From Duncaniella muris (GTDB lineage: Bacteria > Bacteroidota > Bacteroidia > Bacteroidales > Muribaculaceae): a stretch of 64,000 bases of DNA. Of the stretch, positions 8,400 through 41,884 are shown piece by piece. The notes below the pieces were generated by a model. The model did no database searches. It was not told the origin of the DNA and worked only from the letters and a program-made list of their open reading frames with translations. Position 1 is the stretch's first letter, and the number at the start of each line of letters is the position of its first letter. Location of the stretch: positions 1 to 64,000 of the forward strand of contig NZ_PUEC01000007.1 of the NCBI RefSeq assembly GCF_003024805.1. The letters are read 5' to 3'. A program made the position numbers and the translations under genes.

Positions 8400-8756
8400 C
8401 TGTCCGGGTAATTCACTTATTGCGCATCGGGCATCCTCTTCGGAGAGATTTTATATGCAAAGGTACAGCGTGTGTCCGGTCGTCAAGTACCGCTTTCGCT
8501 AACGGTTCCCGGATATTACGGCAGCCTTCCGCAAATCAAAGATGGACTTTCAGCCCCCGTCTCGTAGCAGGGCAAAGCCGGTCGAGCCGAGTTTTGCCCT
8601 TACTTTCGGTGGTTGGGTATTCCGTTCCATCCCGTACACTGTTTACTTGCCTTATCCGTCCTTTTTCCCGCTGTCAGTCCTGCATAAAAATCATTCCCCG
8701 ACGAGAAGCCGAAAGAGCTTCAAGAAAAGGGAAATAAAAAGTTTAACAAATTAAAA
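8400..8756 (+). promoter_or_regulatory. Long leader L1 of the recurring leader family
   Basis: No gene is visible here. The region is a long upstream leader of the gene at 8757. It contains an inverted pair GGGCAAA (8570-8576) / TTTGCCC (8593-8599). It ends with a hairpin GAAGC/GCTTC at 8705-8721, then GGGAAATAAAAA at 8729. It also carries TACCTTTG read leftward (8459-8466) with TTG 18 bases upstream, an antisense promoter shared with leader L2. Five further leaders in the window have the same 3' plan. Confidence 0.6.
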
Positions 8757-9248
8757 ATGACAACTATGCACAGCAGGATTTTTCAAATTTCAACGGAGCC
8801 GATAGACAAAGAGAACTATCTGAATGAGGACACACTTCAGCAAGGAGACGGGAGCTTCTATGACTATTGTTCAGAAATAGACGAGGAAAACCGTAAAGAG
8901 GATATTGCCAATTTGGTCAATTATGCCTTACCCAAAGGAATGTTCGAGCTTATATCCGATGACACCATGCGCTATAATGGTGGAATAGAGCAATGGAAAG
9001 AGGAGTATGTCGCCAATATCAAAAAGAGAGCGGATGCTCTTACGGCAGATAATATGTTGGAATGGGGTTCGACCTATTATCTCAAACAGGCAGTGGAAAA
9101 TCCGTTGGATGTCGCCTATCATTTCTATTTGGATGGCGACGGCTGCCAGTCTTTTGCCGAACAGTCCTTTGCGTTTATGGAGTTTGTTTGTAGGCTTGAA
9201 CCAGGAACGATACTCTACATCGGAGGAGTTGTTGATTACCACTTCTGA
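8757..9248 (+). CDS. Accessory protein of unknown function (163 aa)
   Basis: A soluble acidic protein with no signal peptide. The first ATG (8757) lies 26 bases after the leader's GGGAAATAAAAA; a second ATG at 8766 is possible. No motif is recognised. It is a single-gene transcript between leader L1 and a terminator, typical of the small accessory genes of Bacteroidales conjugative elements. Confidence 0.6.
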   Translation: MTTMHSRIFQISTEPIDKENYLNEDTLQQGDGSFYDYCSEIDEENRKEDIANLVNYALPKGMFELISDDTMRYNGGIEQWKEEYVANIKKRADALTADNMLEWGSTYYLKQAVENPLDVAYHFYLDGDGCQSFAEQSFAFMEFVCRLEPGTILYIGGVVDYHF

Positions 9249-9268
9249 TGTTTGTCCGAAACATTGGC

Positions 9269-9307
9269 AACCATCCGCTTTTGAGGCGGGTGGTTACTCT
9301 CTTTTTT
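9269..9307 (+). terminator. Intrinsic terminator
   Basis: AACCATCCGC, loop TTTTGAG, GCGGGTGGTT (one wobble pair), then ACTCTCTTTTTT. Confidence 0.75.
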
Positions 9308-9399
9308 GCACAGGCTCACCGGTTACTTTTATAAATATGCTCTGCAGAGCTTCTGCCACCAGTTTCACTGCCGGTATATTCCTGTTTTAAGGGTATAAT

Positions 9400-9673
9400 C
9401 CCTTCACAGCCCCGACATACGCCGCAGGTCTGTTTTCGTGTGCAAAGGTACGGTGGATGAACATGGTTCAAGTACCGCTATCGCTACCTGAAATGAAATT
9501 TGACGACAACTTTCCGTAATCGAAGATAACGGTATTTCATAAAATTTCATCGCAGGTTCCTTGTCCGTCGTTCTTGTATCCCCCGTTTGGAACGCACATA
9601 AAAACAATCCTTTTGGGCGAAGTCAGAAGACTTCAAGAAAAGGGGAATAAAAAAATCACTAAATCAAAAGACA
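9400..9673 (+). promoter_or_regulatory. Long leader L2 of the recurring leader family
   Basis: No gene is visible between 9310 and 9673. The region shares blocks with L1: TGCAAAGGTACG, then TCAAGTACCGCTATCGCTA (TCAAGTACCGCTTTCGCTA in L1), an AATC(A/G)AAGAT block, and the same 3' end. The terminal hairpin here is GAAGTC/GACTTC at 9619-9634, then GGGGAATAAAAA at 9642. The base pairs differ from those of L1 while pairing is kept. TACCTTTG read leftward lies within it, with TTG 18 bases upstream. Confidence 0.6.
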
Positions 9674-10150
9674 ATGAGCAAGTACGATTTCATCAAGCAA
9701 GGTAACCTCCTTTATTGGAATACTTCTGACAATGAAAATTCAGAACGAGAATGTAAAATCATTTCCACCCCCGAAAAAGTGGATAGCGACAGTATTATTT
9801 TAATCGCAACAGGTTCTTCAGAGATTGAAGTTTTGGCATCGGAACTATCACCTATTGGCTCATCAAGAAGCCACAAAGAGGAATTTTTGCGCTGGAAAAA
9901 AGAGCGTGAGGCTGAGGGCATGGAGTTTTTCAACCGTCTTTCCGAAGTCATGGCAACAGACAATGATTTGGCTGTAGGCGATATGGTGGCGTTTACAAAC
10001 GACTACGGGGTGGTGTTTGGCCCCAAAGAAGTATTAGCTTTCAGAAAGCCTTGGAATGGCGGTAGATGCGTATATATCGACAGTGATGCCTATTGGTTTC
10101 CAGACCGTCCCGGACAGCTTACCATCCTAAGCAAAGGAGGTACGGAATGA
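9674..10150 (+). CDS. Accessory protein of unknown function (158 aa)
   Basis: A soluble protein. The C-terminal part (about residues 97-150, VGDMVAFTNDYGVVFGPKEVLAF...) has the alternating pattern of a small beta-barrel fold, but no family is recognised. It follows leader L2. Its stop overlaps the next start (ATGA), so the two are coupled. Confidence 0.6.
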   Translation: MSKYDFIKQGNLLYWNTSDNENSERECKIISTPEKVDSDSIILIATGSSEIEVLASELSPIGSSRSHKEEFLRWKKEREAEGMEFFNRLSEVMATDNDLAVGDMVAFTNDYGVVFGPKEVLAFRKPWNGGRCVYIDSDAYWFPDRPGQLTILSKGGTE

Positions 10151-10401: not shown

Positions 10402-10415
10402 TAATAAATATCAAT

Positions 10416-10790
10416 ATGGCACAGAATTTTTATACCAAATGGCAGAACGCTATCCTTGCAGATGCAGGAGGCTATGTTTCAAAAGAGTATCGCAGTTTCC
10501 AGACAGCATTGGTGCGTGAGATTTCCAAATATGCCGCAGCCGTTGGCGCAAAGGTGGCTTCCAATTCAAAAGGGCATTATGACACCTCCTGCTTCATTGA
10601 GCGCAACGGCAAGTTCGTTTACATCAGCCACTCTTCCGGTCTTTCACGAATTGGCAGCGGCGTAAGAATTGAACTCGATTCGTTTCTGATACGGACTGCC
10701 CAACACGCAAAAGACTACAGAGGAGGATATAACCAATATTGTGACATGGCAAATTTGCAGTCCATGATGGATGATTTACTGAAAGAATAA
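10416..10790 (+). CDS. Accessory protein of unknown function (124 aa)
   Basis: The start MAQNFYTKWQNAIL at 10416 is 14 bases after the previous gene; the frame extends further 5' but overlaps it. The product is a small mixed alpha/beta protein (HYDTSCFIERNGKFVYISHSS, then VRIELDSFLIRTA..DYRGG). Its C-terminal 72 residues are repeated almost unchanged at 17092-17308, beyond the cargo block. This is therefore the intact copy. Confidence 0.65.
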   Translation: MAQNFYTKWQNAILADAGGYVSKEYRSFQTALVREISKYAAAVGAKVASNSKGHYDTSCFIERNGKFVYISHSSGLSRIGSGVRIELDSFLIRTAQHAKDYRGGYNQYCDMANLQSMMDDLLKE

Positions 10791-10805
10791 AAAATTGAAA
10801 ACAAG

Positions 10806-10844
10806 AAAAGATGCGGAGCCGTAAGGTTCCGCATCTTTTTCTTT
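10806..10844. terminator. Bidirectional terminator
   Basis: AAAAGATGCGGA ... TCCGCATCTTTTT with A-rich and T-rich flanks. It separates the rightward small gene from the leftward ardC remnant. A diverged copy is at 17314-17352. Confidence 0.8.
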
Positions 10845-10850
10845 CCATCC

Positions 10851-10925
10851 TTACCGGCGCATACCGCTGCCGTATTCTACCTCTTGTAGTTCTGCCCGAT
10901 ACTCTTCCTGTTCGTTCAGCTTCCC
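10851..10925 (-). pseudogene. 3' remnant of an ardC-like gene
   Basis: Read leftward it gives NGKLNEQEEYRAELQEVEY then GSGMRR and a stop. It closely matches the C-terminus of the intact ArdC protein at 17361-19049 (NELEEYRAELQEAEY, GGGMHR). Only about 25 codons remain. The fragment stops at the edge of the MATE gene, marking the left recombination junction at about 10926-10933. Confidence 0.75.
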
Positions 10926-10932
10926 ATTGCCG

Positions 10933-13204: not shown

Positions 13205-13206
13205 AA

Positions 13207-17091: not shown

Positions 17092-17308
17092 TCATTATGA
17101 TACCTCATGTTTCATCGAGCGCAACGGCAAGTTCGTTTACATCAGCCACTCTTCCACGTTAGCCCGAATGGATAGCGGCGTAAGAATTGAACTCGATTCA
17201 TTCCTGATTCGCACAGCCCAAGACGCAAAAGACTACAGAGGGGGATATAACCAATATTGCAACATGGAGAATTTGCAGTCCATGATAGACACCTTGTTAG
17301 AGGAATGA
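17092..17308 (+). pseudogene. 5'-truncated copy of the 124-aa accessory gene
   Basis: From HYDTSCFIERNGKFVYISHSS onward it matches residues 53-124 of the protein at 10416-10790 (changes such as GLSRIGSG to TLARMDSG). The first 52 residues are absent and replaced by the methyltransferase promoter region. The open frame can be extended to 16991, but that part is unrelated. It marks the right junction at about 17090. Confidence 0.75.
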
Positions 17309-17313
17309 ACAAG

Positions 17314-17352
17314 AAAAAAGATGCGGAACAGGTTTTGCTCCGCATCTTTCCT
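17314..17352. terminator. Bidirectional terminator
   Basis: AAAAAAGATGCGGA ... TCCGCATCTTT. Ends the 17-33 kb operon leftward, 10 bases beyond the ArdC stop. Confidence 0.75.
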
Positions 17353-17360
17353 TTCCATCC

Positions 17361-19049
17361 TTACCGGTGCATACCGCCGCCGTATTCTGCCTCTTGTAGC
17401 TCTGCCCGATACTCTTCCAGTTCGTTCAGCTTCCCGTTCACGGCTTGCAGGTTGGCATCAAGCCCGACATTGTGGTCGTAAGGAAAACGGTGCTGCGCAA
17501 CAAGACCGGCATTCGTAGCCTGCCCGACATCAAGCGTATCGGATTCCTTGTTATATTCGACATACAGCACGTCACCGTTCGGCATCTCGAAGGCCGGAAT
17601 CTTTTGATGCGCCAAAGCGGAGAACTGTTCCACCGCCATCTCCCTGGCAACCTCTTTTATCGTCTCTCCGGCAATATCGACACCGTAACGCCGGATATGG
17701 TCTCGGATTTCCTGCTCCGTGAATTTCAACATCACCTCGTAGGTTCCCCCGACACTCCCGTTGTACACGACAGCGAAATTCTCATCCTCGGCAATAAGGC
17801 TGTCACCCTTGTTGTTCGTGGCCGATAAATAAGTATGCTGTTCGTTGATGCCATTGCCGTCGTAATACTCCTTGGCAAGCGTCAGCAATCCCTCGTAATC
17901 GCCTTTCTCCCGAAGTTCGTCAAGCTGCCTCGTGTCATCCGAAAATTGGAGATACGCAACAGAAGAATAAAATGTCTTCTCCTTTGCTGCCGCTCCGTTT
18001 TCCTGCTTCTCGCCGACATTTTGTTCCAGTTCTTGCGCTATCTTATCCACCTTCTGGGTAATCATCGAGGTTGCCCTTTTCACGTCCAGAAGCGTTGTCT
18101 TGATGAACTGTGGCGATTCCTTCAGCTCATCAAGCCAACCTTTAAGATACGCGCAACTGTCCTCCTTGATATGCTTGGTCATGCCGTAACGCTGTGCGAC
18201 CAGTGCGCTGCCTAACTCTGCCACCAGTTCCTCACGGGCATATTCAGGAGAACCGAAAGTAGTCGGCTTGAACCTGTCAAGTACGTTTTCCGCTCCGGTG
18301 GAGTGCGTCATCTCGTGGAACAGTGTCCCGTAGAACGATTCTCCCGATTTGAACTGCTCCTTTTCGGGTACGATGATTTCGTTCTTCGTGATGGAATAGT
18401 AGGCGTCATTCTGATATTTCGGCGTAATCGGACAAATCCACAGGTTATCCCTTATCATCGTATCGACTGGGGCAAAACTGAAATGCTCGCCCTCCTCGAT
18501 TGCCGGACGCGAATTTTCTCGCTCCAGTTTTTGCCACAGCTCCGGTCTCGCTTCCTGCAAGTTAGTCTGCGCGACATTGAAGACCCGGAACACCTGCATC
18601 TTCGGATAGACATTGTATTGTTCCTTTTCGTCATCGGAGAGTTTCTTGTAATCGTCATACTTGATTTTCTCCTTAGTCTCCTTATGGATACAAGTGAACG
18701 TGGTGAGCATGACCGGAAAGGATTTTTCACCACGAAGCACGGAGACACGCGGCAGTTCCTCTCCATCCTTTCCGGGCTTATTGAGCTTCTGAACACAATC
18801 GAACGTGCAGAAACGGGGAATCTTGTACCCTTCTTTCTCGCAGTGCAAAAGCAGCATAAAAGCATTCATCCCGTTGTACTCGCGCCCGTGAAGGTTGCGG
18901 GGCCACTGTAGCGTACCCTCCGTAAACCAAGGCTTTTTCCAGTCCTTTTGAATGCCCTCGATTTTCTCGATCATCATTTCGGCGAACAGGTCAAGAGCCT
19001 TGTCCTCGCTGTTCGGTCCGTCGGCATTCTTCTTTCTGTAACCGGCCAT
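17361..19049 (-). CDS. ArdC-family antirestriction protein with intact zinc-peptidase motif
   Basis: A 562-residue protein, last gene of the leftward operon. Residues about 20-160 form the ArdC ssDNA-binding domain (REYNGMNAFMLLLHC ... LRGEKSFPV). The zincin-like domain has HEMTH at 245-249 and EELVAE at 273-278, so metal ligands are present. The remaining 280 residues are an extra helical region found in Bacteroidales homologues. ArdC proteins of other plasmids protect incoming ssDNA and can travel to the recipient. The extreme C-terminus is GGGMHR, a tail shared by several operon products. Confidence 0.85.
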   Translation of the reverse strand: MAGYRKKNADGPNSEDKALDLFAEMMIEKIEGIQKDWKKPWFTEGTLQWPRNLHGREYNGMNAFMLLLHCEKEGYKIPRFCTFDCVQKLNKPGKDGEELPRVSVLRGEKSFPVMLTTFTCIHKETKEKIKYDDYKKLSDDEKEQYNVYPKMQVFRVFNVAQTNLQEARPELWQKLERENSRPAIEEGEHFSFAPVDTMIRDNLWICPITPKYQNDAYYSITKNEIIVPEKEQFKSGESFYGTLFHEMTHSTGAENVLDRFKPTTFGSPEYAREELVAELGSALVAQRYGMTKHIKEDSCAYLKGWLDELKESPQFIKTTLLDVKRATSMITQKVDKIAQELEQNVGEKQENGAAAKEKTFYSSVAYLQFSDDTRQLDELREKGDYEGLLTLAKEYYDGNGINEQHTYLSATNNKGDSLIAEDENFAVVYNGSVGGTYEVMLKFTEQEIRDHIRRYGVDIAGETIKEVAREMAVEQFSALAHQKIPAFEMPNGDVLYVEYNKESDTLDVGQATNAGLVAQHRFPYDHNVGLDANLQAVNGKLNELEEYRAELQEAEYGGGMHR

Positions 19050-19054
19050 AACCC

Positions 19055-19663
19055 TTATTGATTATAGTTAGACGAATCCGCCACATATTGCGTCAGTTCC
19101 TCCACCTTGCAGGAAAGGTTGATTTTCCCGTTGTGTGCCGACAGGTTCATTTCACCTTTGGCATCCACCTTTACACCTGGCTGCAACCACGCTTCGCGCT
19201 CCTTACCGAAACAGAAGAAGCGCACCCGCTGGTACTCGAAGCCGTCATCGACCTTCTCTGCGCTAAACGCCGAGAACACCGTATAAGGCTGGTCTTTCTT
19301 ATCCCTTTTTTCCTCGATGTTCTGGCCGACCTTACCACGAAACACCAGCTCGCCCTTGACGCAATCCGCATCATCCGTAGCGGCATTGCAGATTTCATCG
19401 GCGAACAGGTTGAAATATAGCTTGTCGCCCCGGCGTTTGAGATACATCGTACCCCTCACTTCTACACGGGAGCCGTTCCGATAACCGGCGGCTTCCTCCT
19501 GACAGCCCTCCTTGCGGACATCCACCTCGATAGTGTGCCCGCCACCCGTCGCCGGAATCTGTACCCGGAGCGGAAACACCAGAAATTCTTTCTCTTCTTT
19601 GTTATTGCGAACCGACGCATCGCGGCCGATAACGCCGCATACCGTAACATTACATTTAATCAT
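19055..19663 (-). CDS. SSB-like double OB-fold protein
   Basis: Start at 19663 (MIKCNVTVCGVIGRDASVRN) is chosen because the longer frame to 19915 runs antiparallel to nothing conserved and overlaps another small gene. Residues 1-90 match an SSB-type OB fold (VIGRDASVRNNKEEKEFLVFPL ... GSRVEVRGTMYLKRR). A second, similar unit follows at about 110-190 (LVFRGKVGQNI ... VRFFCFGKEREAWLQPGVKVDAKGEM). It probably binds ssDNA with the adjacent ArdC. Gap to ArdC is five bases. Confidence 0.7.
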   Translation of the reverse strand: MIKCNVTVCGVIGRDASVRNNKEEKEFLVFPLRVQIPATGGGHTIEVDVRKEGCQEEAAGYRNGSRVEVRGTMYLKRRGDKLYFNLFADEICNAATDDADCVKGELVFRGKVGQNIEEKRDKKDQPYTVFSAFSAEKVDDGFEYQRVRFFCFGKEREAWLQPGVKVDAKGEMNLSAHNGKINLSCKVEELTQYVADSSNYNQ

Positions 19664-19746
19664 CTGTTTTTTGTCTTTAATGATACATGGATCATCCGGA
19701 CAAGTGATACATGGGTTGATTGATGTTGAACTGTTGTAGGGTGCGG

Positions 19747-19923
19747 TCAGTCGGGTGCGCGTATCATCGCCCAGACCATCCATCCGGCGATGGCTAATTG
19801 CACGCCCACGACAACGAGCGTCCCGATCCACCCCAACAGCAGGTAGCAGAACCGGACGTGCAACGCAAGGAGGGAAACTCCCGCCAGACACTTGCATAGC
19901 TGTATCATCACGCATTTTATCAT
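19747..19923 (-). CDS. 58-residue small membrane protein
   Basis: ATG at 19923 gives MIKCVMIQLCKCLAGVSLLA..., with two hydrophobic helices (about residues 11-20 and 27-54) and a short Arg-containing end. It starts 12 bases after the hydrolase gene stop and fills the gap before the OB-fold gene, so it fits the operon spacing. No family is recognised. Confidence 0.5.
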   Translation of the reverse strand: MIKCVMIQLCKCLAGVSLLALHVRFCYLLLGWIGTLVVVGVQLAIAGWMVWAMIRAPD

Positions 19924-19935
19924 ATCGCCATGCCT

Positions 19936-21501
19936 TTATCTTCGCAGGTTTTCCGTTTGTCCCTGTTGTCGGGACATCCCCTGCTCGAAATTCTGTGAGG
20001 CCGCTTCCGACAGGATAACCGTATTCAGTATACCGGTTACACGCATCCGCTTGGCCTCTTCCGTGAGTGTGCCGTTGTTCAATGTGGCAGACAACCGGTT
20101 CAACTCGGAGGCGGTCAGCTCCCGTGAGACACGCAGTTCCCCGTTGTCCGCTTTCAGAATGGCCTTGCCGTTCTCGCCGATAGTCAGGTCGCAGTTCTTC
20201 ATATTCGGCAACAACGGCTTCAGGTCGATGGTACGAAGATCCATCGCGGCGGATATGGCTGCCTTCTGTTCCTCTTCCTCCCGGTTGTCAATCTGTGTGG
20301 CTAAAAGCATAAGGGAGGCGAAAGCAGTCATCGCCATCTCCACAATCAGGTCGTTGCATCCCGACATTCCCACACCGCTGTCCTCCGACGAAAGGAGTTT
20401 TTTCATCCATCCGTCTGGCGAAAGGTTCTTTTCAGGCACGGTATCTTCCGCCGCCTTGTATTTGACGAGCAGGTCATTTCCGTTGTGCAGCATTTGCAAT
20501 TTGATATGTCCTTTCTGTGCGATTTCAGCCAGATACGCCGCAGGGTCTATATCCCGTTTCGTCCCGTCGGCATAGATATTCTTCACACCGAAATGCAGAT
20601 GTTCCCCGGTCGTCCGTGTCCCCGTATTGCCCGATGTGCCAAGCCGTCCGCCTGCCTGTACCGTATCGCCGACCTTGACGGAAATCTCCTTGAGGTGCAT
20701 ATAGGTACATTGTACCTTGCTGCCGTCCGTCCGGGCATATTCCACCGTCAGCGACTTGCCGCCGGGTGTATTCTTGTTCTGGTTTACCGCCACGACCTTG
20801 CCGCCGCTCTCCGTAGCCAGTACCGCGTCGGCTTTGCAACGGATATCCACGCCCTTGTGCATCTGTTGCTTTGTGCTGTCCAACGGGTCTTGCCGTGTTC
20901 CGAACGGAGAGGTAATGAACAGAAATTCCTCCCGTTCCACCGGGAACGAATACCCCGTTCCATGTTCCGCACTCTCGGAAGTCTGGAGCGGATTGTGTTC
21001 CACCCCGAACTGCCGGCCTTGTGCCGCCATCTCCTGCATCACCTGTCTGTCATACTTCTGCAAGCCGTTCTGCTCAATGATTTTCTGCAGGTTCTCGGCA
21101 TACTTGCCGCCTGTGGCGTAACCGGCTTTCTCAATGCTTTGTGCCCAGCCCTTGTAATCGTCCGGGGAGAGTTTGAAACAACCGGCATAGCGGCTGTTCT
21201 CCTTCAAAAAGCGGGAATGATGCTCGTATGAATCACCCACGCTGTCATAGCTGCAGAACTTTTCATTCGGCTTATCATCGGTGTAGATTCCGTATTTGCC
21301 GCCTCCGGCAATCCACGAGGGTGTCGCCTTGATGCCGAAATGGTTGTTCTCGTTCCTCGCCAGACGGCTCTGTCCGTTGCTGCTTTCCAGTATGCCTTGC
21401 GCCAATGTGACGGAAGCCGGAATGCCATACCTGCGCATCTGTGCCATCGCATAATCCGCGTATTGCAGTGCATATTCCTGATTCTTGCTCATAATCGTCA
21501 C
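19936..21501 (-). CDS. Bifunctional peptidoglycan hydrolase (glucosaminidase-like + M23)
   Basis: A 521-residue protein. Residues about 8-115 match the FlgJ/glucosaminidase fold (YGIPASVTLAQGILESSNGQSRLARNENNHFGIKA, with the catalytic-type Glu in ILES). Residues about 190-330 are an M23 metallopeptidase with HKGVDI and GEHLHFGV, both zinc motifs intact. The C-terminal third is unrecognised and ends QTENLRR. There is no signal peptide, unusual for a wall hydrolase. It may be exported by the conjugation channel or act locally at it. It is the best candidate for opening peptidoglycan during transfer. Confidence 0.82.
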   Translation of the reverse strand: MTIMSKNQEYALQYADYAMAQMRRYGIPASVTLAQGILESSNGQSRLARNENNHFGIKATPSWIAGGGKYGIYTDDKPNEKFCSYDSVGDSYEHHSRFLKENSRYAGCFKLSPDDYKGWAQSIEKAGYATGGKYAENLQKIIEQNGLQKYDRQVMQEMAAQGRQFGVEHNPLQTSESAEHGTGYSFPVEREEFLFITSPFGTRQDPLDSTKQQMHKGVDIRCKADAVLATESGGKVVAVNQNKNTPGGKSLTVEYARTDGSKVQCTYMHLKEISVKVGDTVQAGGRLGTSGNTGTRTTGEHLHFGVKNIYADGTKRDIDPAAYLAEIAQKGHIKLQMLHNGNDLLVKYKAAEDTVPEKNLSPDGWMKKLLSSEDSGVGMSGCNDLIVEMAMTAFASLMLLATQIDNREEEEQKAAISAAMDLRTIDLKPLLPNMKNCDLTIGENGKAILKADNGELRVSRELTASELNRLSATLNNGTLTEEAKRMRVTGILNTVILSEAASQNFEQGMSRQQGQTENLRR

Positions 21502-21504
21502 TCC

Positions 21505-23766
21505 TTATCTATGAATACCCCTATGTGTTTCCTGCTCGTCCTGCCGTTTATCCTGTAGCTCTATCTCACTGATGGCGACACGCTCACCGGCACGGACAAG
21601 TTTGGGCAGATAGCTGTCCAGTTGCGTCCTTGGGAACTCTGCGAAAGTCGAAAATCCATGTTCCGGATATTCCTTGACCGTAATTCCCAGTATTTTTGCT
21701 CCCTTTGCCGCATCCTCATTATAAAGCCGGTACACTTCTCCTGCACGAATCAGATACAGGGCGTCGGGATGCTTTTCCTTGAGGTTGTCCCAAAACTGCC
21801 GTTTCGGAGACACGTTTTCATCATTCGTCTCTTCCGACCGATTTTCCGCCACCGTCTCATTCTGTTGCCGTACCTGCTCTTCCGTTTTCTGTTCCCCGAC
21901 GGATTGTCCCTTTTGCAGCACATCGGCAAACAGCGTAGCCGCCAAATGCCGCTTGTAGCCGTCCCGGTCTTCCGCCACCCACATCCGTTGCCACTGCTGT
22001 GGAGTGACGCTGCGGGGCTGCAGCTTTTGTCCGTCGATGGTTGCCACACACTGGATTCCATCCTGCCTGGTCTTGAAGATGGCAACACGCTGAATACGGT
22101 TCAGGTCAATCTCCGGTGTATCGCTGCCGAACAAATCCACTTTCAGGTCGGGCTTGACCTCCGCCAGTGCATAATACTTGTGCGCCAGCTCCATCCGTAC
22201 CTTGTCAATGTTGTCCATCGCCTGCTTGAGCGTGGAGAAAAAACGGTTCACATCCTCCTTATCGGGATAGACGCTGTACCCCTCCTTGTTTTCCGGCTTG
22301 ATATAGAGTGCCCAACGGTTCTTGTCGTCTTGAATCATCTGCACGGCATCGAACCCGACCTCATTCGCCCGTCTGACCGCCTCCGACACGTCCAACGTGG
22401 AGAGCTTTTCCAACGTGTAGTTCCTTAACCGGGCCAGTGTCACCATTTTTTCATTGAAATAGCTGTCATCGGGTCTGTAGCCCAATGCACCGTCAGTATT
22501 ATAGAAACGCACCTGCTCGATACCCTCTTTCTGCAATGCCCGTTCGATACGTCCCTTGTTCATGCCGGGAATCTCGTTGTTCGTCTCGGTCGAAGCTCCT
22601 GCCGGCAAAATGACATCTGCCGATTTTGCCTCCCGGTCTATGACGAGGACGATGCTTTTCGCCGCCTTGTCCGGGTGCTGGCGGATTTCATTCGCCACAA
22701 AGTAATGCTTGGGCATCTGTTCCTGCATGGTCGTGGTCTGCCGTCTGTTTCGCAGGGTGGCGTACTCAATTTTCTCGCCCCGTTCCGCTTTTCGGATAAC
22801 ATCAAGCGCATTGTTCACGTCGCTTTCGAGAGCGTCCATCATACACGGGTTTTCCTTGAACTCCCGACACCAGTAATCCACCGTCTTCAGGCTTGCATCG
22901 GACAGACGCGCGGGCAGTCCCAATTCCAGCATCTTGATACCCGAAGCCAGTTCCACTACCAACCTTTCATATTTTACCGCATCCTCTGACGGAGCCACGC
23001 CATTCTTCATGACCATGCCTTCACGGGCAAGCCGCTGTTGATGCCCTGTGGCACTCACGATCTGCCGCAAGGCTTCCTGCACATAATCGTGGTAATGCTC
23101 AAAATCCTTTTGACGCGGCATATAGACCGCATCTTTGTCCGTCTCGTAATGAGGAACTCCGCTACCGTCCGAACGCACGGGAACGAGGTTGTCCCGCATC
23201 TTCAATAGAAAGTCGTTGAACCGGGTGCGCAACCTGCGGTTGTCCGCCTCGGCATATCCTCTTTCCTGAACATTGCCGTCCTGCTTTACCGCATCCTCGT
23301 AAGCCGGCTTGTCAACGTAGGGCAACGTCGTCTGGTCGATATTGAAAAGCGTGCGGATCTCCCGGTTATGGACACCCTTGAACTGTGCCTTATGCTCTTC
23401 GTCCAATTGGAGATAGGCGGTGCGGTCGATGGTTTCATTCGGGTTGTTCCGGTTGACATACTTGTTCCAGTTATAGAACAGGAACGGTACGCCCTGCTCA
23501 TGCTCCCGCACCGCAGCACCCCGTGCCTTGGTTTCACTGTAAAGCGTGAACAGGTTGGTCTTGCATCCGTTATTGTCCGAATGCAAGGCCATAAAGAGGG
23601 CATTGAACGGGCTGGCCGAGACCCCTTGCGGATAGAGCCGGGGAAATCCCTTGCCCGATACGTTGAGCCAATGGCCGCCGGCGTTCGATGCCCCGCCCAG
23701 TGCGGCAGACAGCAGTTCCGTCTGCTTTTCTTCGGCTTTTTTTTCGATTTGCGACTTTTCTTTCAT
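21505..23766 (-). CDS. ArdC-like protein with degenerate zincin site
   Basis: A 753-residue protein. N-terminal residues about 45-105 (FNALFMALHSDNNGCKTNLF ... GVPFLFYNWNKYVN) resemble the ArdC ssDNA-binding domain. The expected HExxH of the peptidase part is replaced: the aligned segment reads YVQEALRQIVSATGHQQRL, keeping TGHxxRL but losing the zinc His-Glu. It is therefore probably a DNA-binding or structural ArdC relative, not a protease. The C-terminal half has repeated beta/alpha units of unknown function and ends THRGIHR. Confidence 0.7.
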   Translation of the reverse strand: MKEKSQIEKKAEEKQTELLSAALGGASNAGGHWLNVSGKGFPRLYPQGVSASPFNALFMALHSDNNGCKTNLFTLYSETKARGAAVREHEQGVPFLFYNWNKYVNRNNPNETIDRTAYLQLDEEHKAQFKGVHNREIRTLFNIDQTTLPYVDKPAYEDAVKQDGNVQERGYAEADNRRLRTRFNDFLLKMRDNLVPVRSDGSGVPHYETDKDAVYMPRQKDFEHYHDYVQEALRQIVSATGHQQRLAREGMVMKNGVAPSEDAVKYERLVVELASGIKMLELGLPARLSDASLKTVDYWCREFKENPCMMDALESDVNNALDVIRKAERGEKIEYATLRNRRQTTTMQEQMPKHYFVANEIRQHPDKAAKSIVLVIDREAKSADVILPAGASTETNNEIPGMNKGRIERALQKEGIEQVRFYNTDGALGYRPDDSYFNEKMVTLARLRNYTLEKLSTLDVSEAVRRANEVGFDAVQMIQDDKNRWALYIKPENKEGYSVYPDKEDVNRFFSTLKQAMDNIDKVRMELAHKYYALAEVKPDLKVDLFGSDTPEIDLNRIQRVAIFKTRQDGIQCVATIDGQKLQPRSVTPQQWQRMWVAEDRDGYKRHLAATLFADVLQKGQSVGEQKTEEQVRQQNETVAENRSEETNDENVSPKRQFWDNLKEKHPDALYLIRAGEVYRLYNEDAAKGAKILGITVKEYPEHGFSTFAEFPRTQLDSYLPKLVRAGERVAISEIELQDKRQDEQETHRGIHR

Positions 23767-35372: not shown

Positions 35373-35403
35373 CAAAATTACATAAAATACGATGCGCCGC
35401 AAA
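35373..35403 (-). promoter_or_regulatory. Bacteroidetes promoter of DUF4143 gene
   Basis: Minus strand TTTG (35400-35403), 19-base spacer, TAATTTTG (35373-35380): a full consensus match. Confidence 0.8.
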
Positions 35404-35449
35404 TTTTTCAGGGTATTTTCTCACATCCCAAGCCGTTTTTTTTATCATA

Positions 35450-35732
35450 TACGACTCTTCTTTTTTACGAAATCCTTGCTTTTACCGGCAGGTCATTCTT
35501 TACTCTTTTCGTCGGCGAATGTAGGACGAAGCGCATAATCGCCAAGCCGCATTGCATTCGGATGACGAAAACAGACTGTTGCACGGTCGGTTTTCTATCC
35601 GGGTTTGGCTTATGATGCCACAACTTCATCCTCTGGCTGCCTCAAAAAGCTGAAAACAAACCTGCACGGCAAACGAAAGCAGGGAAAAATAAAAATCAGC
35701 ATGATAGTTCAACCAATTAAAAGTAAACAAGT
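35450..35732 (+). promoter_or_regulatory. Long leader L5 of the recurring leader family
   Basis: No gene is visible. The 3' end has a hairpin CTGC/GCAG (35662-35682) directly followed by GGGAAAAATAAAAA, with the ATG of the next gene at 35733. The upstream part diverges from the other leaders. Confidence 0.5.
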
Positions 35733-35957
35733 ATGGTAGAAGAAATTAGACAAGACGACAAAGTGATATTGTCGAGCGAAGACGGTTTTTCCGTCCCTAT
35801 GATTTTCAACAACCTTTGTGGAAAGAATTTCATTGGCAAAGAATACAAGGACTATATCAGGCATATAGCCTTTGAGGAAATGGGACTTAAGCCGGGCATC
35901 GTGTCCCATTATCGGGACGGTGTTCTATATAAGAACGGCACAATCCCGGAACTTTGA
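35733..35957 (+). CDS. Small accessory protein (74 aa)
   Basis: A soluble protein (MVEEIRQDDKVILSSEDGFSVPMIFNNLCGK...) behind leader L5, 47 bases before the next gene. No family is recognised. Confidence 0.55.
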   Translation: MVEEIRQDDKVILSSEDGFSVPMIFNNLCGKNFIGKEYKDYIRHIAFEEMGLKPGIVSHYRDGVLYKNGTIPEL

Positions 35958-36004
35958 ACAGGTAAACCAAAATAGGAACAGTAAAAATCAAAATTTATAC
36001 AAAT

Positions 36005-36637
36005 ATGGAAACAACAACTATTCATCCGGCAGAAGCCTATCTCCGAAACGAGCAGAATCCCACCTCTTTATATGTAAGGATTGAAGGACAACGTAGGCGA
36101 TTATTCATCAACCGCAATGAAAACGTCATCGGCATTATTGCGCCAAGAAAACGAAAAAGCGGGTACATCTTCACGGATTGGGTAAGCATTGAGAAGATAT
36201 ACTATCCGTCATCCTCTCCCGAAGATGCAGCGGACATAGAAAAGAAACAGGTCTTGAAATACCAGAAACTTGCCCGACTTGCCACGCATACGAATGATTG
36301 GCTTCGCAAAATCGCTAATGCCGATTTGGATAAATCCCTCTACGAGAACCGCATCACGACCGGCACACGCATCGACGGCAAGTGTATCGGACTTGCCACC
36401 ATCGAGAAGTATTGCGGCAGTTGGGATATGGCTCGTTTCAGAACGGCACTGAAGCAAGGCGAAAAGTTTTCCACCGGACGCTTCGACTTTTGCGGCTATG
36501 ACGGTACGTTATGGTGCGAACCACGCGAAAACGGCGATATGGCGGCTGGATTCAGCAAAGAGTTCCGGAATTGCGGCAACGGCTACTATTATCTGCTTAT
36601 CAACGATGAATACATGATAGGCTATGACATAGACTGA
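36005..36637 (+). CDS. Accessory protein of unknown function (210 aa)
   Basis: A soluble basic protein, second behind leader L5. N-terminal residues 20-60 look like a beta-rich unit (TSLYVRIEGQRRRLFINRNENVIGIIAP), the middle is helical and Lys-rich, and the end is aromatic (NGYYYLLINDEYMIGYDID). Gene order and terminator indicate a two-gene transcript. Function unknown. Confidence 0.6.
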   Translation: METTTIHPAEAYLRNEQNPTSLYVRIEGQRRRLFINRNENVIGIIAPRKRKSGYIFTDWVSIEKIYYPSSSPEDAADIEKKQVLKYQKLARLATHTNDWLRKIANADLDKSLYENRITTGTRIDGKCIGLATIEKYCGSWDMARFRTALKQGEKFSTGRFDFCGYDGTLWCEPRENGDMAAGFSKEFRNCGNGYYYLLINDEYMIGYDID

Positions 36638-36659
36638 GTTATATGCAGGGTAAGGACAG

Positions 36660-36696
36660 ACCGTATCGGGCAAAGTCTCGGTACGGTTTGTTGTTC
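36660..36696 (+). terminator. Intrinsic terminator
   Basis: ACCGTATCG, loop, CGGTACGGT (one wobble), then TTGTTGTT. Confidence 0.65.
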
Positions 36697-36699
36697 CGA

Positions 36700-37218
36700 T
36701 CAACTGACGGCCTTTTATAAAAATCCTTTCTTCCTCTTATAGCCTTATATCCTGCGGTCAGTTTGCCATAAGCCGCTTCACGCATTTGTGTGACACGTTA
36801 CATAAAGTGCGTGAAGCCCCTTTTGCAAAAGGACGGACACGGACAGACTTGGCATTACAGGGGGCGGGATGAATCCTGCCCTCCGCAGTTCCAAGACCGT
36901 CCATCGGGAAGTCCGTCCCGGCTGACCGCATTGCCCTTTTATCCATAGTCTTTCCTTTTCTAAAAGATTTCCATTAAACCCAAGTCCGCTGCCGTGCGAC
37001 CTACGGGAAAGAATTTTCCGCAAAGGTAACCGGCCGCTCCAATCTTGCCAAGGCCGGCGTGCCGCCGCGAGTGACACGTAAAAATCTTCCTCTCCGTCTG
37101 TCGAGCGTATTTTTTCGGATCAGCCTTGCCCAATTGTCTCTTGCCACCTTCTGAAAGCAGAAAAATCTTCCCGGCGGTCGCAAACAGACCGAACAAAGGG
37201 AAATAAGAATCTTGATTC
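36700..37218 (+). promoter_or_regulatory. Long leader L6 of the recurring leader family
   Basis: A 520-base stretch with no gene. It contains a perfect 10-base inverted pair GCTTCACGCA (36775-36784) / TGCGTGAAGC (36808-36817). A leftward TACCTTTG lies near 37021-37028. A block CGTAAAAATCTTCCTCTCC is shared with L4. The terminal hairpin is CGGTC/GACCG (37175-37191), followed by GGGAAATAAGAA at 37198. Confidence 0.55.
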
Positions 37219-37578
37219 ATGAGTATTACAAAAACAATAATAAGTATGGAAATATTGAAAATCGTAATTCCCAAGTGGAATATAGCGGAAATTACTGGCT
37301 ATGACCCGATGACAACCTTTTGGCAGGACTTCTCTATAGCAGACAAGTTCGGGAATGAAGCCATAGCTGACACATACAGAAGGGTTAAGGCAGAATGGAA
37401 AGATAACTACAAGCACTGGACAGAGCTGTGCCTTGTGCTTAATCACAAAATTTGGCAATGGCACGAGCGGGACAACCAGAAAGCCACGCTCTATGACCGC
37501 CTTTGGAAAGAAGCAGACGGAATGACCGCCGAATGGCCAGACGAGCAGCAGGAGTATTACTTTCAAATAACGGATTAA
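37219..37578 (+). CDS. Accessory protein of unknown function (119 aa)
   Basis: A soluble protein (MSITKTIISMEILKIVIPKW...). Translation may instead begin at 37249 (MEILKIV), which gives a leader-to-ATG distance closer to that of L5. Trp-rich and acidic; no family recognised. Followed by another small gene. Confidence 0.55.
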   Translation: MSITKTIISMEILKIVIPKWNIAEITGYDPMTTFWQDFSIADKFGNEAIADTYRRVKAEWKDNYKHWTELCLVLNHKIWQWHERDNQKATLYDRLWKEADGMTAEWPDEQQEYYFQITD

Positions 37579-37626
37579 AGCAATCGTTGGGAAGGTGTGA
37601 AATCTCCCCACTATAAACTCAAAACT

Positions 37627-37989
37627 ATGACCGCTCAAGAAAAGATACAAAAAGTAACGGAAATATCCCAAAGCAAAGGCTGGAGCATAAGTGTGGATGA
37701 CAAAAATAAATCAAATATTCAGTTCGACTTCCAACGCTATACCAACTATGGGCAGGATTTTAATTTCAGTGCCGAAATGAAATGCGAGGACATTGATACC
37801 CTCATTGCTGACATGGAACAATATTTCGAGGGTTTTGACCCGGATTACGAAGCCTATCTATGGATTGGAAATGATGGGCACGGTAAAAATGGCGCACCTT
37901 ACCACATCAAGGACATTGTATCGGATATGGAGGAAGCGGAAAAACAAATACACGACTTGTTGGAAGCACTTGAGACAGAATTTATCTAA
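37627..37989 (+). CDS. Accessory protein of unknown function (120 aa)
   Basis: Start at 37627 (MTAQEKIQKVTEISQSKGWSISVDDKN) is preferred over 37597, whose first ten residues look like spacer. The acidic mixed alpha/beta protein (MKCEDIDTLIADMEQYFEGFDPDYEAYLWIGNDGHG) is typical of small accessory genes of these elements. Function unknown. Confidence 0.55.
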   Translation: MTAQEKIQKVTEISQSKGWSISVDDKNKSNIQFDFQRYTNYGQDFNFSAEMKCEDIDTLIADMEQYFEGFDPDYEAYLWIGNDGHGKNGAPYHIKDIVSDMEEAEKQIHDLLEALETEFI

Positions 37990-38029
37990 TGCGCATGATG
38001 ATTTATAAGACTAATTCCAAAAGGAGCTT

Positions 38030-38250
38030 ATTTTACTGTTATACAACCGATACTAAATGTAGTATATACTAAGGTTAGTAAAGTAGGATATTAGGAAATA
38101 TCCCATCAGAAATGATAGAATGCACTACATTTAGTCAATCAGTATTTTAGTATAGTAGTAGATACTATAATACTAAAATATACAAAAGTAGTAAAATAGT
38201 ATGCACTAATAATAGTAAATACTAAAAATAGTATTATCTTTGTATCAGAT
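38030..38250. repeat. AT-rich repeat region before parA (candidate partition site)
   Basis: Dense in TAGTA/TACTA words. A perfect 12-base inverted pair ACTAAATGTAGT (38052-38063) / ACTACATTTAGT (38124-38135) encloses a hairpin GGATATT-AGGA-AATATCC (38086-38103). A parA promoter box TATCTTTG is at 38235-38242. The layout resembles plasmid centromere/operator sites; an origin cannot be excluded. Confidence 0.6.
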
Positions 38251-38266
38251 ATAAAGACACGAAATT

Positions 38267-39022
38267 ATGACAAAAATAATCGCAGTTTTGAACCACAAGG
38301 GCGGTGTCGGAAAGACAACTACCACCATCAATCTTGCTGCCGCATTGCAGCAGAAGAAAAAGCGTGTACTGCTCATCGACATGGACGGTCAGGCAAACCT
38401 CACGGAATCCTGCGGTCTCTCCATCGAAGAGGAACGGACGGTGTACGGAGCGATGAAAGGCGAATATACCTTACCGGTATTCGAGTTGGAAAACGGTCTT
38501 TCCGTTGTACCGTCCTGCCTCGATTTGTCGGCGACAGAATCCGAGCTTATCAACGAGCCGGGGCGGGAATTAATACTAAAAGGGCTGATTGCAAAATTGC
38601 TTGAAACCCGTAAATTCGACTATATCCTGATTGACTGTCCGCCCTCGCTGGGTTTGCTGACGCTCAACGCCCTCACATCGGCGGATTTCCTGATTATCCC
38701 GGTACAGGCGCAGTTCCTCGCCATGCGCGGAATGGCAAAGATTACAAATGTGGTCGGGATTGTCAAGGAACGTTTGAACCCAAACCTAAATATCGGCGGC
38801 ATTGTCATCACCCAGTTTGACAAGCGCAAGACGCTCAACAAAAGTGTGGCGGAACTAATCAGCGAATCGTTCTGCGACAAGGTATTCAAGACCGTCATCC
38901 GGGACAATGTATCATTGGCCGAAGCTCCGATAAAAGGCATGAATATCTTTGAGTATAACAAGAACAGCAACGGGGCAAAGGACTACATGGAGTTGGCAAA
39001 GGAAGTGTTGAAATTAAAGTAA
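38267..39022 (+). CDS. parA: ParA-family partition ATPase
   Basis: A 251-residue ParA/Soj ATPase. Deviant Walker A KGGVGKTTT at residues 11-19, then VLLIDMDGQANLTES (Walker A') and YILIDCPPSLGLLTLNAL (Walker B). It would separate copies of the element before cell division. Bacteroidales conjugative elements often carry such a gene, sometimes called TraA. The repeat region just upstream, and the RHH gene eight bases downstream, support a partition operon. Confidence 0.9.
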   Translation: MTKIIAVLNHKGGVGKTTTTINLAAALQQKKKRVLLIDMDGQANLTESCGLSIEEERTVYGAMKGEYTLPVFELENGLSVVPSCLDLSATESELINEPGRELILKGLIAKLLETRKFDYILIDCPPSLGLLTLNALTSADFLIIPVQAQFLAMRGMAKITNVVGIVKERLNPNLNIGGIVITQFDKRKTLNKSVAELISESFCDKVFKTVIRDNVSLAEAPIKGMNIFEYNKNSNGAKDYMELAKEVLKLK

Positions 39023-39029
39023 AAACGAT

Positions 39030-39284
39030 ATGGGCAAAAGTGATTCATTGAAAAGCGGCATGAGAAGCGGACTGGACGGCTTGCTGTCATCTACCGGGAA
39101 GTCCACGCAAAAGAAAGAGCCTGCACCGGTCAAAACGGGAAAAGAGCCTGCCGTGCATTGCAATTTTGTTATCGACAAGAGTATTCATATCCGGATGAAA
39201 TACCTCGCTATCGAGAAGAATATGTCGCTCAGGAATATTGTGAACGAGGCGATGAAAGAATATCTGGAGAAGCACGAGAAATAA
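39030..39284 (+). CDS. Small ribbon-helix-helix protein, possible centromere-binding partner
   Basis: An 84-residue protein with a basic flexible N-terminus (GMRSGLDGLLSSTGKSTQKK) and a C-terminal RHH motif (CNFVIDKSIHIRMKYLAIEKNMSLRNIVNEAMKEYL). This matches small ParB/CopG-type partners that bind the site upstream of parA. Spaced eight bases from parA. It is also a candidate regulator for the TTAGTACGATT motif. Confidence 0.75.
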   Translation: MGKSDSLKSGMRSGLDGLLSSTGKSTQKKEPAPVKTGKEPAVHCNFVIDKSIHIRMKYLAIEKNMSLRNIVNEAMKEYLEKHEK

Positions 39285-39289
39285 CCGGG

Positions 39290-39701
39290 GCGGCAATCCT
39301 CCCAATCGACTTTTATACCATACCGCTATCTTATGGCTCACGTCCACAAGGTAGCGGTTTTCCCGTTTATATCCCCTGCAGTTCTCTTGTTCTATTGCAA
39401 GGCTGCATTTCCCCATTCTATCGATTCCTCTTATCGCTCGTCCGGCTTCATTCCTGCCATCGCCGGTTGGTTTTCCAGACGCAAATTTGGACTGCCGCGC
39501 TTGATTTCACCGCTTTGAAGTGCATTTCTCGTAAAATTCTTCCTTTCCGTGAAAGAGTAATTTTCCGGAAAAAGCGTTGAAAATAGCTTGTTCGTCAGTC
39601 CCTTGAAGCATCTGTAAATCCCAAGCGGTTCAGGCAGAAAAAAGAACCGAAAAGAGGGATAAAAAAGAAAATCAATTCAATGACAATTAAATTTTATGAT
39701 T
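39290..39701 (+). promoter_or_regulatory. Long leader L4 of the recurring leader family
   Basis: No gene is visible. It shares CGTAAAATTCTTCCTTTCC-type and GAAAGAGTAATT blocks with L3. The terminal hairpin is CGGTTC/GAACCG (39626-39649), with GGGATAAAAAAG at 39656. Confidence 0.6.
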
Positions 39702-41441
39702 ATGGCAACAACAGCAGTTCAAGCAGTAGAGAAGAACATCACATCGGTAGCATTGGCAGACATTCAGCCGAGCAATTACAACCCTCGTAAGAATTTTGAC
39801 GAGACAAGCCTTGCGGAGCTTGCCGAGAGCATCCGTCGGCAGGGAGTGCTTCAGCCTATCGGAGTGCGCCCCATTGAGGACAACCGCTTCGAGATTGTAT
39901 TTGGAGAACGGAGATACCGAGCCTCCCTCATGGCTGAATTGACGGAAATTCCGGCTATCGTCATGGAAATTTCAGACGAGACAGCCGAGGAAATGGCGAT
40001 TACCGAGAACCTGCAACGCAAGGATGTTACACCCATTGAGGAAGCAAATGCTTATCAAAAGCTCATAGACAGCGGTCGCCACGATGTGCAATCCTTGACC
40101 GTGCAGTTCGGCAAGACCGAGGCATATATTCGTACACGCCTCAAATTCGTGTCCTTAATACCTGAAATCGCCTTGTTGTTGGAGCAGGACGAGCTTACAA
40201 TCAGTGTGGCAACGGAAATCTGCCGTTATGGGGAAGATATACAGCACGACATCTACGACAAGCATTTGAGAGAGGGTTTGACGTTTAATAGTTGGCGAGG
40301 AATGAAAGCCTCCGAGGTAGCAAAAAACATCGAACGAAGCTATACGACTGACCTCAATCGTTATTCGTTTGACAAGACCCTATGCCTTTCGTGTCCCCAC
40401 AACACCAATAACATGATGTTATTCTGCGAGGGAGGTTGCGGTAATTGTGCCAACCGTTCCTGCCTTGATGAAATGCAAACGTCATATCTTATGGAGAAAG
40501 CCGTACAAATCATGGGACAGCGACCTCTCGCTTTACTTTGCCGAGGATCTTACGGTAGCAATGAAAAAGTAGTTGAATGCCTTGTCGCATCGGGTTTTGA
40601 GGTCGAAAACCTATCAATGCGTCCTAACGACTATCCCGAAGAACCCGAAGCTCCCCAAGTAGAGGATTACGAAAATACCGAGGAATATGCGGAAGCATAT
40701 AAAGAGTATGAAAAAGAGCTGTCGGATTATAACGAAGAATGCGAGGAAGTGAACCGCAGGGGCGAAGCAGGAGAAATCACGTTGTATGTGACGATTGAGC
40801 GCAACGATGTATCGCTATGTTATGTAGAAAATACCGAAATGCAAACGGAGGCAGGAGAGACCCAAGAAACGGTTGTTTCCCCGATTGAGAAATTGGAGAA
40901 GCAGGACAAGCGCAACAAGGAGATTGCCCTTGAAAAGACCGTAGAAGACACCAAAAAGCAGATTCTGGAAGTTGATATGACGGAAACCAAATTTGGTGCG
41001 GACGAGGATAAGATGATTTATTTCTTCATGCTGTCCTCACTCCGAAAAGAACATTTCGAGGCGGTAGGCATTGAGGATAAAGGCTCCTATTACTACCTTA
41101 CGAACGAGGACAAAATGCGCATCATCGAGAACCTTACCGCCAAGCAGAAAGCCGTTATCCGCAGGGACTTCTTGATAGCCAACTTCAAGGACGCATTTGG
41201 TAGCAACGCCATCGCCACCCTTTTGCTTGATTTTGCCAAAAAACATATGCCCGACCGATTGGCAGACATCCAAAACGGATATAACGAGATTTACGAGAAG
41301 CGACACCATCGTATTGAGGAAAAGAAAGCCGTTTTGCTCGTGCAGGAACAAGCCAAACAGGAGGAAGCGGAACAGCCCGAAGAACCGCAACCCGAAGCGG
41401 AGACACAGACCGAACCGCAAACGGAAGAAATAGCTGCTTGA
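39702..41441 (+). CDS. ParB/RepB/Spo0J-family nuclease-domain protein
   Basis: A 579-residue protein. N-terminal residues about 10-110 are a ParB/Srx domain (IQPSNYNPRKNFDETSLAELAESIRRQGVLQPIGV ... FGERRYRASL), then an HTH region (VQFGKTEAYIRTRLKFVSLIPEIALLLEQDELTI). A Cys cluster follows (CLSCPHNTNNMMLFCEGGCGNCANRSC), possibly metal-binding. The C-terminal half is acidic, with a Pro/Glu/Thr tail. It stands apart from parA (680 bases) under its own leader, so it may serve gene control or antirestriction as well as partition. An ATG at 39696 adds two residues. Confidence 0.8.
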   Translation: MATTAVQAVEKNITSVALADIQPSNYNPRKNFDETSLAELAESIRRQGVLQPIGVRPIEDNRFEIVFGERRYRASLMAELTEIPAIVMEISDETAEEMAITENLQRKDVTPIEEANAYQKLIDSGRHDVQSLTVQFGKTEAYIRTRLKFVSLIPEIALLLEQDELTISVATEICRYGEDIQHDIYDKHLREGLTFNSWRGMKASEVAKNIERSYTTDLNRYSFDKTLCLSCPHNTNNMMLFCEGGCGNCANRSCLDEMQTSYLMEKAVQIMGQRPLALLCRGSYGSNEKVVECLVASGFEVENLSMRPNDYPEEPEAPQVEDYENTEEYAEAYKEYEKELSDYNEECEEVNRRGEAGEITLYVTIERNDVSLCYVENTEMQTEAGETQETVVSPIEKLEKQDKRNKEIALEKTVEDTKKQILEVDMTETKFGADEDKMIYFFMLSSLRKEHFEAVGIEDKGSYYYLTNEDKMRIIENLTAKQKAVIRRDFLIANFKDAFGSNAIATLLLDFAKKHMPDRLADIQNGYNEIYEKRHHRIEEKKAVLLVQEQAKQEEAEQPEEPQPEAETQTEPQTEEIAA

Positions 41442-41459
41442 CAAATGTTATCATAACGG

Positions 41460-41496
41460 ATAGGGGGACGGAGAAATCCGCCCTCTATTTATTTTT
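41460..41496 (+). terminator. Intrinsic terminator after parB-like gene
   Basis: ATAGGGGGACGGA-GAAA-TCCGCCCTCTAT with one mismatch and one wobble, then TTATTTTTG. Confidence 0.7.
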
Positions 41497-41499
41497 GTA

Positions 41500-41884
41500 T
41501 GCCCTCGGATAAAGAAGCCCCAAATACCTCTTTTAACTTTCTGACGAACCCGTCACCACCCGCCCGTTCTCCATTCATAGCTTCCGTTCCATTTCTTTTT
41601 TACCATTTTCAACTTCCCTTTTATAGCGTTTCCCCGGCTTCATTCCCTGTCAGCCCCGGTTTGGTTTTATCAGATGCAAAGGTCGGCCGTCGCGCTTGAT
41701 CCGGCGGCTTGAAATGTATTTCCTGCAAATTCTTCCTTTCCCTGAAAGAGTAATTGGCAGGAAAAGCCTTCCGTATGAAGCTGTACCGACAGCCGTGTAC
41801 CGCATCCATAAAATCCCAAAGCGGTTCCGACAGAAAGGAATCGAACGAAGGGAAAATAAAAACAAATCATTAAAATTTAAGATT
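41500..41884 (+). promoter_or_regulatory. Long leader L3 of the recurring leader family
   Basis: No gene is visible. It is the closest relative of L4: CGCTTGAT, TTCTTCCTTTCC and GAAAGAGTAATT blocks are shared. The terminal hairpin is CGGTTCC/GGAATCG (41822-41843, one G-U), then GGGAAAATAAAAA at 41850. Confidence 0.6.

Follow-up and report, generated by a model that had tools for sequence, protein, structure and literature searches.

In F-like and IncI plasmids, Frpo or ssi sequences act as promoters in single-stranded DNA (ssDNA): a hairpin of the template strand carries the promoter boxes in its stem and, in the accessible accounts, one element has several copies, which lie upstream of ssb, ardA and further entry genes. 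The ardA gene of ColIb-P9 has a Frpo-like promoter and is expressed before the incoming strand becomes double-stranded, as described in the available text of PMC8744291, and genes for single-stranded DNA-binding protein (SSB) are found behind Frpo in enteric plasmids, according to the available text of PMC11541004. Promoters of this kind have been described in enteric plasmids, F among them; a form from the Bacteroides group appears to be undescribed. The word stem 'Bacteroid' does not occur in the main text of PMC11541004, and no earlier description in Bacteroidota was found in the open-access literature, which misses most subscription papers. Here, we analysed a 64,000-nt stretch of Duncaniella muris DNA (the window), which is part of a contig of 102,174 bases (C67) and carries much of an integrative conjugative element. 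Six leaders of this Bacteroidota element, L1 to L6, all of which stand before plus-strand genes, are probably Frpo-like ssDNA promoters (we put the probability at about 0.7); this reading is based on structure, covariation, box position, the missing coding-strand -7 consensus and gene neighbours.

As in Frpo/ssi, a long hairpin forms on the strand complementary to the mRNA (weakly in L1), this hairpin contains elements for the host primary sigma factor in the sense orientation of the folding strand (in L5 the element fails the test for a helix on each side), and the leaders precede genes of the early or leading-region type (ardA, ssb and a methylase gene). The likeness is one of functional class, drawn from architecture and neighbours. 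The boxes are TTGACA/TATAAT in Frpo/ssi, against the Bacteroidota TAnnTTTG and TTG in the leaders described here. Unlike Frpo/ssi, these leaders have an apical CTTCCT/AGnGTA motif and a small hairpin with GGGAAAATAAAAA, and they belong to integrated conjugative elements.

Each leader contains an imperfect hairpin of 150-250 nt upstream of the small hairpin, and the ssDNA fold of the minus strand closes near ATAAAA. On this strand, the long hairpins were localized at 8447..8692 in L1 (z -1.1), 9432..9605 in L2 (z -3.5), 35506..35657 in L5 (z -3.1), 37012..37166 in L6 (z -4.2), 39468..39619 in L4 (z -4.7) and 41665..41813 in L3 (z -6.6). Model R1 also matched the minus strand at L4 (39462-39616, E 1.1e-38) and at L3 (41657-41810, E 7.5e-38), the L3 copy being one of the 29 sequences from which R1 was built. 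A whole-leader alignment showed that the body is conserved from GCRAAnnT through to the tail. In the 29-sequence minus-strand alignment of L3/L4-class leaders, both partners had changed in 26 of the 47 pairs, with 152 double-change cells against 53.4 +/- 5.6 in shuffles; 90.3% of the cells were paired, and 33-47% when the partner was slid by 1-3 columns. The main hairpin was the same when the structure was built from Watson-Crick pairs alone. At gathering score, no Rfam family was matched (L1 and L2 were searched at this score only); at relaxed thresholds, window positions 35400-41900 gave two chance-level matches, and the distant copies of the hairpin gave none. The apical CTTCCT...AGnGTA sequence is nearly invariant in alignments A1-A3, and it occupies the same place in five distant copies.

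The preliminary description had proposed a conserved RNA leader common to several transcripts, which corresponds to the main alternative: a structured mRNA leader of approximately 200-300 nt, of the riboswitch or protein-binding type, with an unrecognised promoter further upstream and control at the post-transcriptional level. The covariation, which is strong in the L3/L4 class, supports conserved folded leaders shared by several transcripts and is equally compatible with RNA. Additionally, the plus strand can form the same hairpin, with a mean z against dinucleotide shuffles of -3.4 in 62 leaders, versus -4.1 for the minus strand. The minus strand was the more stable one in 49 of these 62 leaders with DNA parameters and in 54 with RNA parameters, and it was better relative to the shuffles in 44. 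The RNAalifold consensus of 37 leaders was -20.0 for the minus strand and -9.4 for the plus strand with RNA parameters, and -4.5 and -1.3, respectively, with DNA parameters. Wobble pairs numbered 38 on the minus strand and 15 on the plus strand when counted on the shared consensus, and 39 and 20 on a plus-derived structure; counts of mismatches per sequence with G-U pairs forbidden were uninformative. On the Watson-Crick-only structure, the minus:plus wobble counts were 53:60 (A1) and 17:18 (A2), i.e., without a strand preference, a result that suits an mRNA leader and detracts from the ssDNA reading. We take the wobble counts together as moderate support for the minus strand as the folding strand.

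In Bacteroides, the promoter consensus consists of TAnnTTTG at -7 and TTTG near -33, the latter not being found in Flavobacterium johnsoniae, as stated in the available text of PMC7366714. We identified this -7 box inside the long hairpin, on the strand opposite the gene. In plus-strand coordinates, the minus-strand box is TACCTTTG in L1 (8458-8465, with a -33 TTG at 8484-8486 and an 18-nt spacer), L2 (9443-9450, TTG at 9469-9471, 18-nt spacer) and L6 (37021-37028, TTG at 37049-37051, 20-nt spacer); -7-like boxes are TACATTCG in L5 (35516-35523, a motif position), CAAATTTG in L4 (39482-39489) and GACCTTTG in L3 (41677-41684), the last two without a -33 TTG. All 37 sequences of alignment A1 share G C. 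A A.. T without change; on the minus strand this reads A..TT.GC, which corresponds to the fixed positions of TAnnTTTG and leaves nn free. Eleven L1/L2-type leaders of seven elements have TTG-N17-19-TACCTT(T/C)G, in which the spacer varies (spacers counted by eye; three further rows are without the TTG-N17-19 motif), and TTG-N20 precedes the box in 10/10 L6-type leaders. A helix lies on both sides of the box in five of the six window leaders (L1-L4 and L6) and in 14/14 ardA leaders, described below, compared with 59/400 shuffles that kept the box, and in 46/50 relatives compared with 139/960 shuffles; this criterion replaced one that demanded an unpaired box after the result of the latter was known. 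The 50 relatives comprise 45 body-A leaders, which remained from 48 after exclusion of one duplicate and the two copies from the window, and five leaders chosen by hand from 18 other candidates; a candidate box was absent from two of the 50.

On the coding strand, TAnnTTTG was found within 250 nt of 0/38 leader open reading frames (ORFs) of 100 aa or more, versus 56/209 other ORFs (Fisher p 3e-5). Ordinary coding-strand boxes, read by eye, precede the ParA and YhcG genes and the minus operon of the window. A looser-pattern scan of the loci gave 121 candidates, 114 of them on the plus strand; after removal of near-identical copies, 11 of the remaining 69 had a coding-strand TAnnTTTG, against approximately eight expected by chance in 480 nt, and GCAAAGGT was present in 34/69, mostly at about -175, -200, -223 or -272. 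The absence of the box from the leader ORFs speaks against the mRNA leader, as do terminator-like hairpins with T-runs before L1-L4 and an opposing gene before L5 (both noted by eye; L6 gave no clear reading); the conserved opposite-strand TAnnTTTG would have no explanation under it. The fixed place of the small hairpin before the start codon is in its favour. The conserved, covarying fold of the preliminary description stands; the mRNA as the folding molecule is not favoured, because the minus strand folds better, the wobble pairs lean to the minus strand and the box is on the minus strand. We regard a structured mRNA leader as unlikely.

Under the ssDNA promoter reading, the strand that is complementary to the mRNA, here the minus strand, would fold into the imperfect hairpin while the element is in single-stranded form. 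The 3' arm of the hairpin would provide the non-template -7 box TAnnTTTG (and the -33 TTG in the L1/L2 and L6 classes), and the 5' arm would serve as template. An RNA polymerase carrying the primary sigma factor would bind and start near the base of the hairpin, approximately at the conserved ATAAAA; copying the 5' arm outward, it would then read through the small hairpin and the A-rich GGGAAAATAAAAA and reach the gene. On double-stranded DNA this box is directed away from the gene, which would therefore be silent or weakly expressed. The expected effect is an early, conjugation-specific synthesis of SSB, ParB, ArdA-type and other proteins in the new cell, provided that the minus strand is the one transferred; the uncharacterized genes behind the leaders would probably serve in anti-defence.

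The genes behind the leaders are consistent with such a role. ParB-like genes are also present in the leading regions of F-type plasmids, and in our data SSB (PF00436, 8e-12), ParB and an N6-methylase/SNF2 protein are encoded behind leaders. Of 123 leaders that have the box motif, 121 are followed by an ORF of at least 45 codons that starts 12-97 nt after the GGG of the tail; the 123 include near-identical copies, and eight candidates without the box motif were dropped. The predicted ORFs behind leaders fall into up to 21 clusters, most of them without a Pfam match among those scanned. In one locus (L009, 1220-6193), a 1657-aa methylase-SNF2 helicase is encoded directly behind a leader.

A first DNA search covered 198 genomes of the window's order and, apart from the genome of the window itself, found only short stretches matching the end of the tail; a body pattern matched three of 393 genomes of this order, the window's own genome among them. 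Thirty-seven body-pattern loci in viral contigs were taken as chance, because none showed a leader in a follow-up scan. The covariance model matched 14 of 121 genomes of one family, several of which (e.g., G393, G395 and G396) had supplied sequences to the model. One distant match is located directly before a gene for ArdA (PF07275, 7e-33) in an element with CtnDOT TraJ and TraM, and when 151 genomes were searched with this ArdA, 21 loci from 17 of them were found. At the 14 loci with a noncoding upstream region, all 14 have an opposite-strand TAnnTTTG (TAnnTTCG in one) in a long hairpin; the remaining seven, where the upstream sequence is coding, show no leader, the two groups being separated by eye. 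No coding-strand box was found within 330 nt at any of the 21 loci. The ardA leaders argue for the ssDNA promoter model and are its best outside support, although they do not settle its polarity. Model copies in three genomes (G497, G424 and G495) are without the A-rich tail, and their neighbours include genes for leucine-rich-repeat and secreted proteins. In L141, L142 and L143, distant copies of the hairpin have TACCTTTGC, no A-rich tail and a conserved stretch after the closing stem.

Several further observations weigh against the ssDNA promoter reading. The fold of L1 is hardly better than that of shuffled sequences, L5 fails the test for a helix on both sides of the box, the -33 TTG is absent from L3/L4-class leaders, and only 37/68 leaders have a T in first position of the -7 box. 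In a stricter test, the box was unpaired within the helix in 3/6 window leaders and 1/14 ardA leaders, compared with 4/200 shuffles. The seven leaderless ardA loci are also without a coding-strand box, so that little can be concluded for ardA from the missing box by itself; the related sequences do not count as independent events, and several of the ardA leaders are almost the same. Two related plasmids have coding-strand TATCTTTG or TATATTTG before parB instead. Wobble pairs in the small hairpin, which would lie in the transcript, favour the plus strand, the reverse, or neither (20:19), depending on the method. A further difficulty concerns the transferred strand. In pMV158, the MOBV prototype, the nick is on the coding strand of mobM, as reported in the available text of PMC5863519; if the same holds for the MobV-family relaxase gene of the window (mobV, 5347..6804, plus strand), the plus strand would be transferred, the hairpins would be on the strand retained by the donor and the model would fail in the recipient. 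Leaders occur on both sides of mobV in the same orientation, and if the minus strand goes, those to the right of mobV would enter late rather than first.

A premelted bubble is not a general feature of the hairpins, since only three of the six window leaders and one of the 14 ardA leaders had the box unpaired.

The boxes also allow the proposal that they are ordinary double-stranded promoters for a leftward antisense RNA, or that the hairpin is part of a decoy RNA that occupies the polymerase in the manner of 6S RNA. 6S RNA is a long imperfect hairpin that mimics promoter DNA, and a long hairpin with a central bubble would resemble it in outline. A Bacteroides 6S RNA with product RNAs is known (PMC7366714, available text), and the L1/L2-type boxes are full TTG-N17-19-TACCTTTG promoters. 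Against this, transcription from the box would leave the hairpin behind, so that the hairpin would be outside the RNA that the box starts; no Rfam 6S family was matched at gathering score, or at relaxed thresholds for 35400-41900 and the distant copies; and the tight link to downstream gene starts would not be explained. Both variants seem very improbable. Single-strand origins (sso) of rolling-circle plasmids are hairpins on ssDNA that are read by polymerase. The leaders could similarly prime second-strand synthesis through polymerase or primase with gene expression secondary, as the several copies per element and the combined transcription and priming by Frpo named in the title of Masai and Arai 1997 (cited in PMC11541004) would allow, but unlike sso they lie, several per element, before coding genes, at a short and similar distance from the predicted starts of up to 21 ORF clusters, which together with the ardA and ssb link argues for expression as the selected role and makes this the least probable of the alternatives.

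The preliminary description had centred on the small hairpins and their common tail, which we recovered at all six leaders on the plus strand: at 8705..8740 in L1, with GGGAAATAAAAA, in the predicted 5' untranslated region of gene 8757-9248; at 9619..9653 in L2, with GGGGAATAAAAA, before gene 9674-10150; at 35661..35695 in L5, where CCTGC/GCAGG runs into GGGAAAAATAAAAA, before the DUF7688 gene 35733-35957; at 37175..37209 in L6, with GGGAAATAAGAA, before gene 37219-37578; at 39626..39666 in L4, with GGGATAAAAAA, before parB (39696-41441); and at 41822..41862 in L3, with GGGAAAATAAAAA, before gene 41885-42160. The tail is present at all six, and its exact form GGGRAATAAAAA is limited to L1 and L2, L3 to L6 having the variants just given. 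The gap of 6-7 nt between stem and GGG in five of the six (L1-L4 and L6) was borne out, the L5 stem running directly into GGG, and so were the compensating changes in stem pairs: a scan for tail plus stem showed CGGTTC/GAACCG, CGGTC/GACCG, GAAGCC/GGCTTC, CGGCTCC/GGAGCCG and others among 143 matches, 130 on the plus strand of the loci, some low-scoring rows being chance matches. GGGRAATAAAAA has four copies in its own 3.27-Mb genome, three of them inside the window, and the reversed control pattern has none. In 39 loci found by a ParB search (603,059 bases; two are from bins labelled Clostridia, which may be misbinned), a slightly looser tail pattern was counted 36 times on the strand of ParB and 14 times on the opposite one, versus 2 and 4 times for its reversed control. 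Because the tail is rare in the genome and the reversed control scarce, the unit of tail and hairpin is not due to chance. The small hairpin with GGGAAAATAAAAA is the last ~40 bases of the larger conserved unit and a minor part of its structure; located downstream of the predicted start, it may well be a true 5' untranslated region of the mRNA. The view that it is clearly RNA was dropped, as wobble counts disagree among methods. A further GGGAAATAAAAA, one of the three window copies, lies at 54170-54181 on the minus strand, just before the transfer gene 53027-54160, with no such hairpin in the stretch of flank inspected.

The MobV-family relaxase of the window (NCBIfam MobV, 173 bits) is 75-98% identical in 11 other stretches, and mobV lies upstream of parB on the same strand in 11 of 14 ParB loci from 12 genomes (L016, L026 and L043 were unmatched). 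No PF03432 relaxase was found in the window; such relaxases are present elsewhere in the same genome. Upstream of mobV, positions 5140-5347 contain inverted repeats conserved in 11 sequences (the window and 10 others), and a candidate origin of transfer (5200..5265) combines the conserved palindrome GGCAnnCGGGCTTGCCCGnnTGCC with the block AGCCTAATACCCC, which is unchanged throughout the alignment. Between the L1/L2 genes and the region where ParA and ParB are encoded on the plus strand, an operon on the minus strand encodes ArdC-type and Toprim proteins; a minus-strand transfer operon (coupling protein, TraM and TraG) lies beyond. The 753-aa protein encoded at 21505-23766 (minus strand) joins ArdC-type/MPTase-PolyVal parts to a C-terminal MutS domain I, a combination that looks unusual. 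Direct repeats at 10575-10928 and 17093-17438 (82% and 92% alike) flank MatE, ABC transporter, TetR and methyltransferase genes, and the segment 10575-17438 looks like a cargo insertion or duplication. Short TAGTA/TACTA-type repeats are clustered before parA at 38000-38240, as they are before parA in L066, and are a possible partition or operator site. A different parB leader, also present before neighbouring genes, was observed in the related plasmids L067 (~17645-20719, minus strand) and L065 (6739, plus strand); it consists of a coding-strand TATCTTTG or TATATTTG followed by a CTGG/CCAG or CTGC/GCAG hairpin.

Conjugative elements are among the main vehicles of gene acquisition in gut Bacteroidales, and to our knowledge little is known of the expression of their genes during the first minutes after entry into a new cell. 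On balance, we lean toward the wider view that multi-copy ssDNA promoters specific to the phylum, read by the Bacteroidota primary sigma factor, switch on anti-defence and establishment genes in MobV and CtnDOT-type elements. If this is true, protective genes would be switched on early, from the single strand passed in mating between gut bacteria; the orientation of the leaders would predict the strand that each element transfers; and ssDNA promoters would mark entry genes directly, so that the ORF clusters behind the leaders would be candidates for anti-defence functions.

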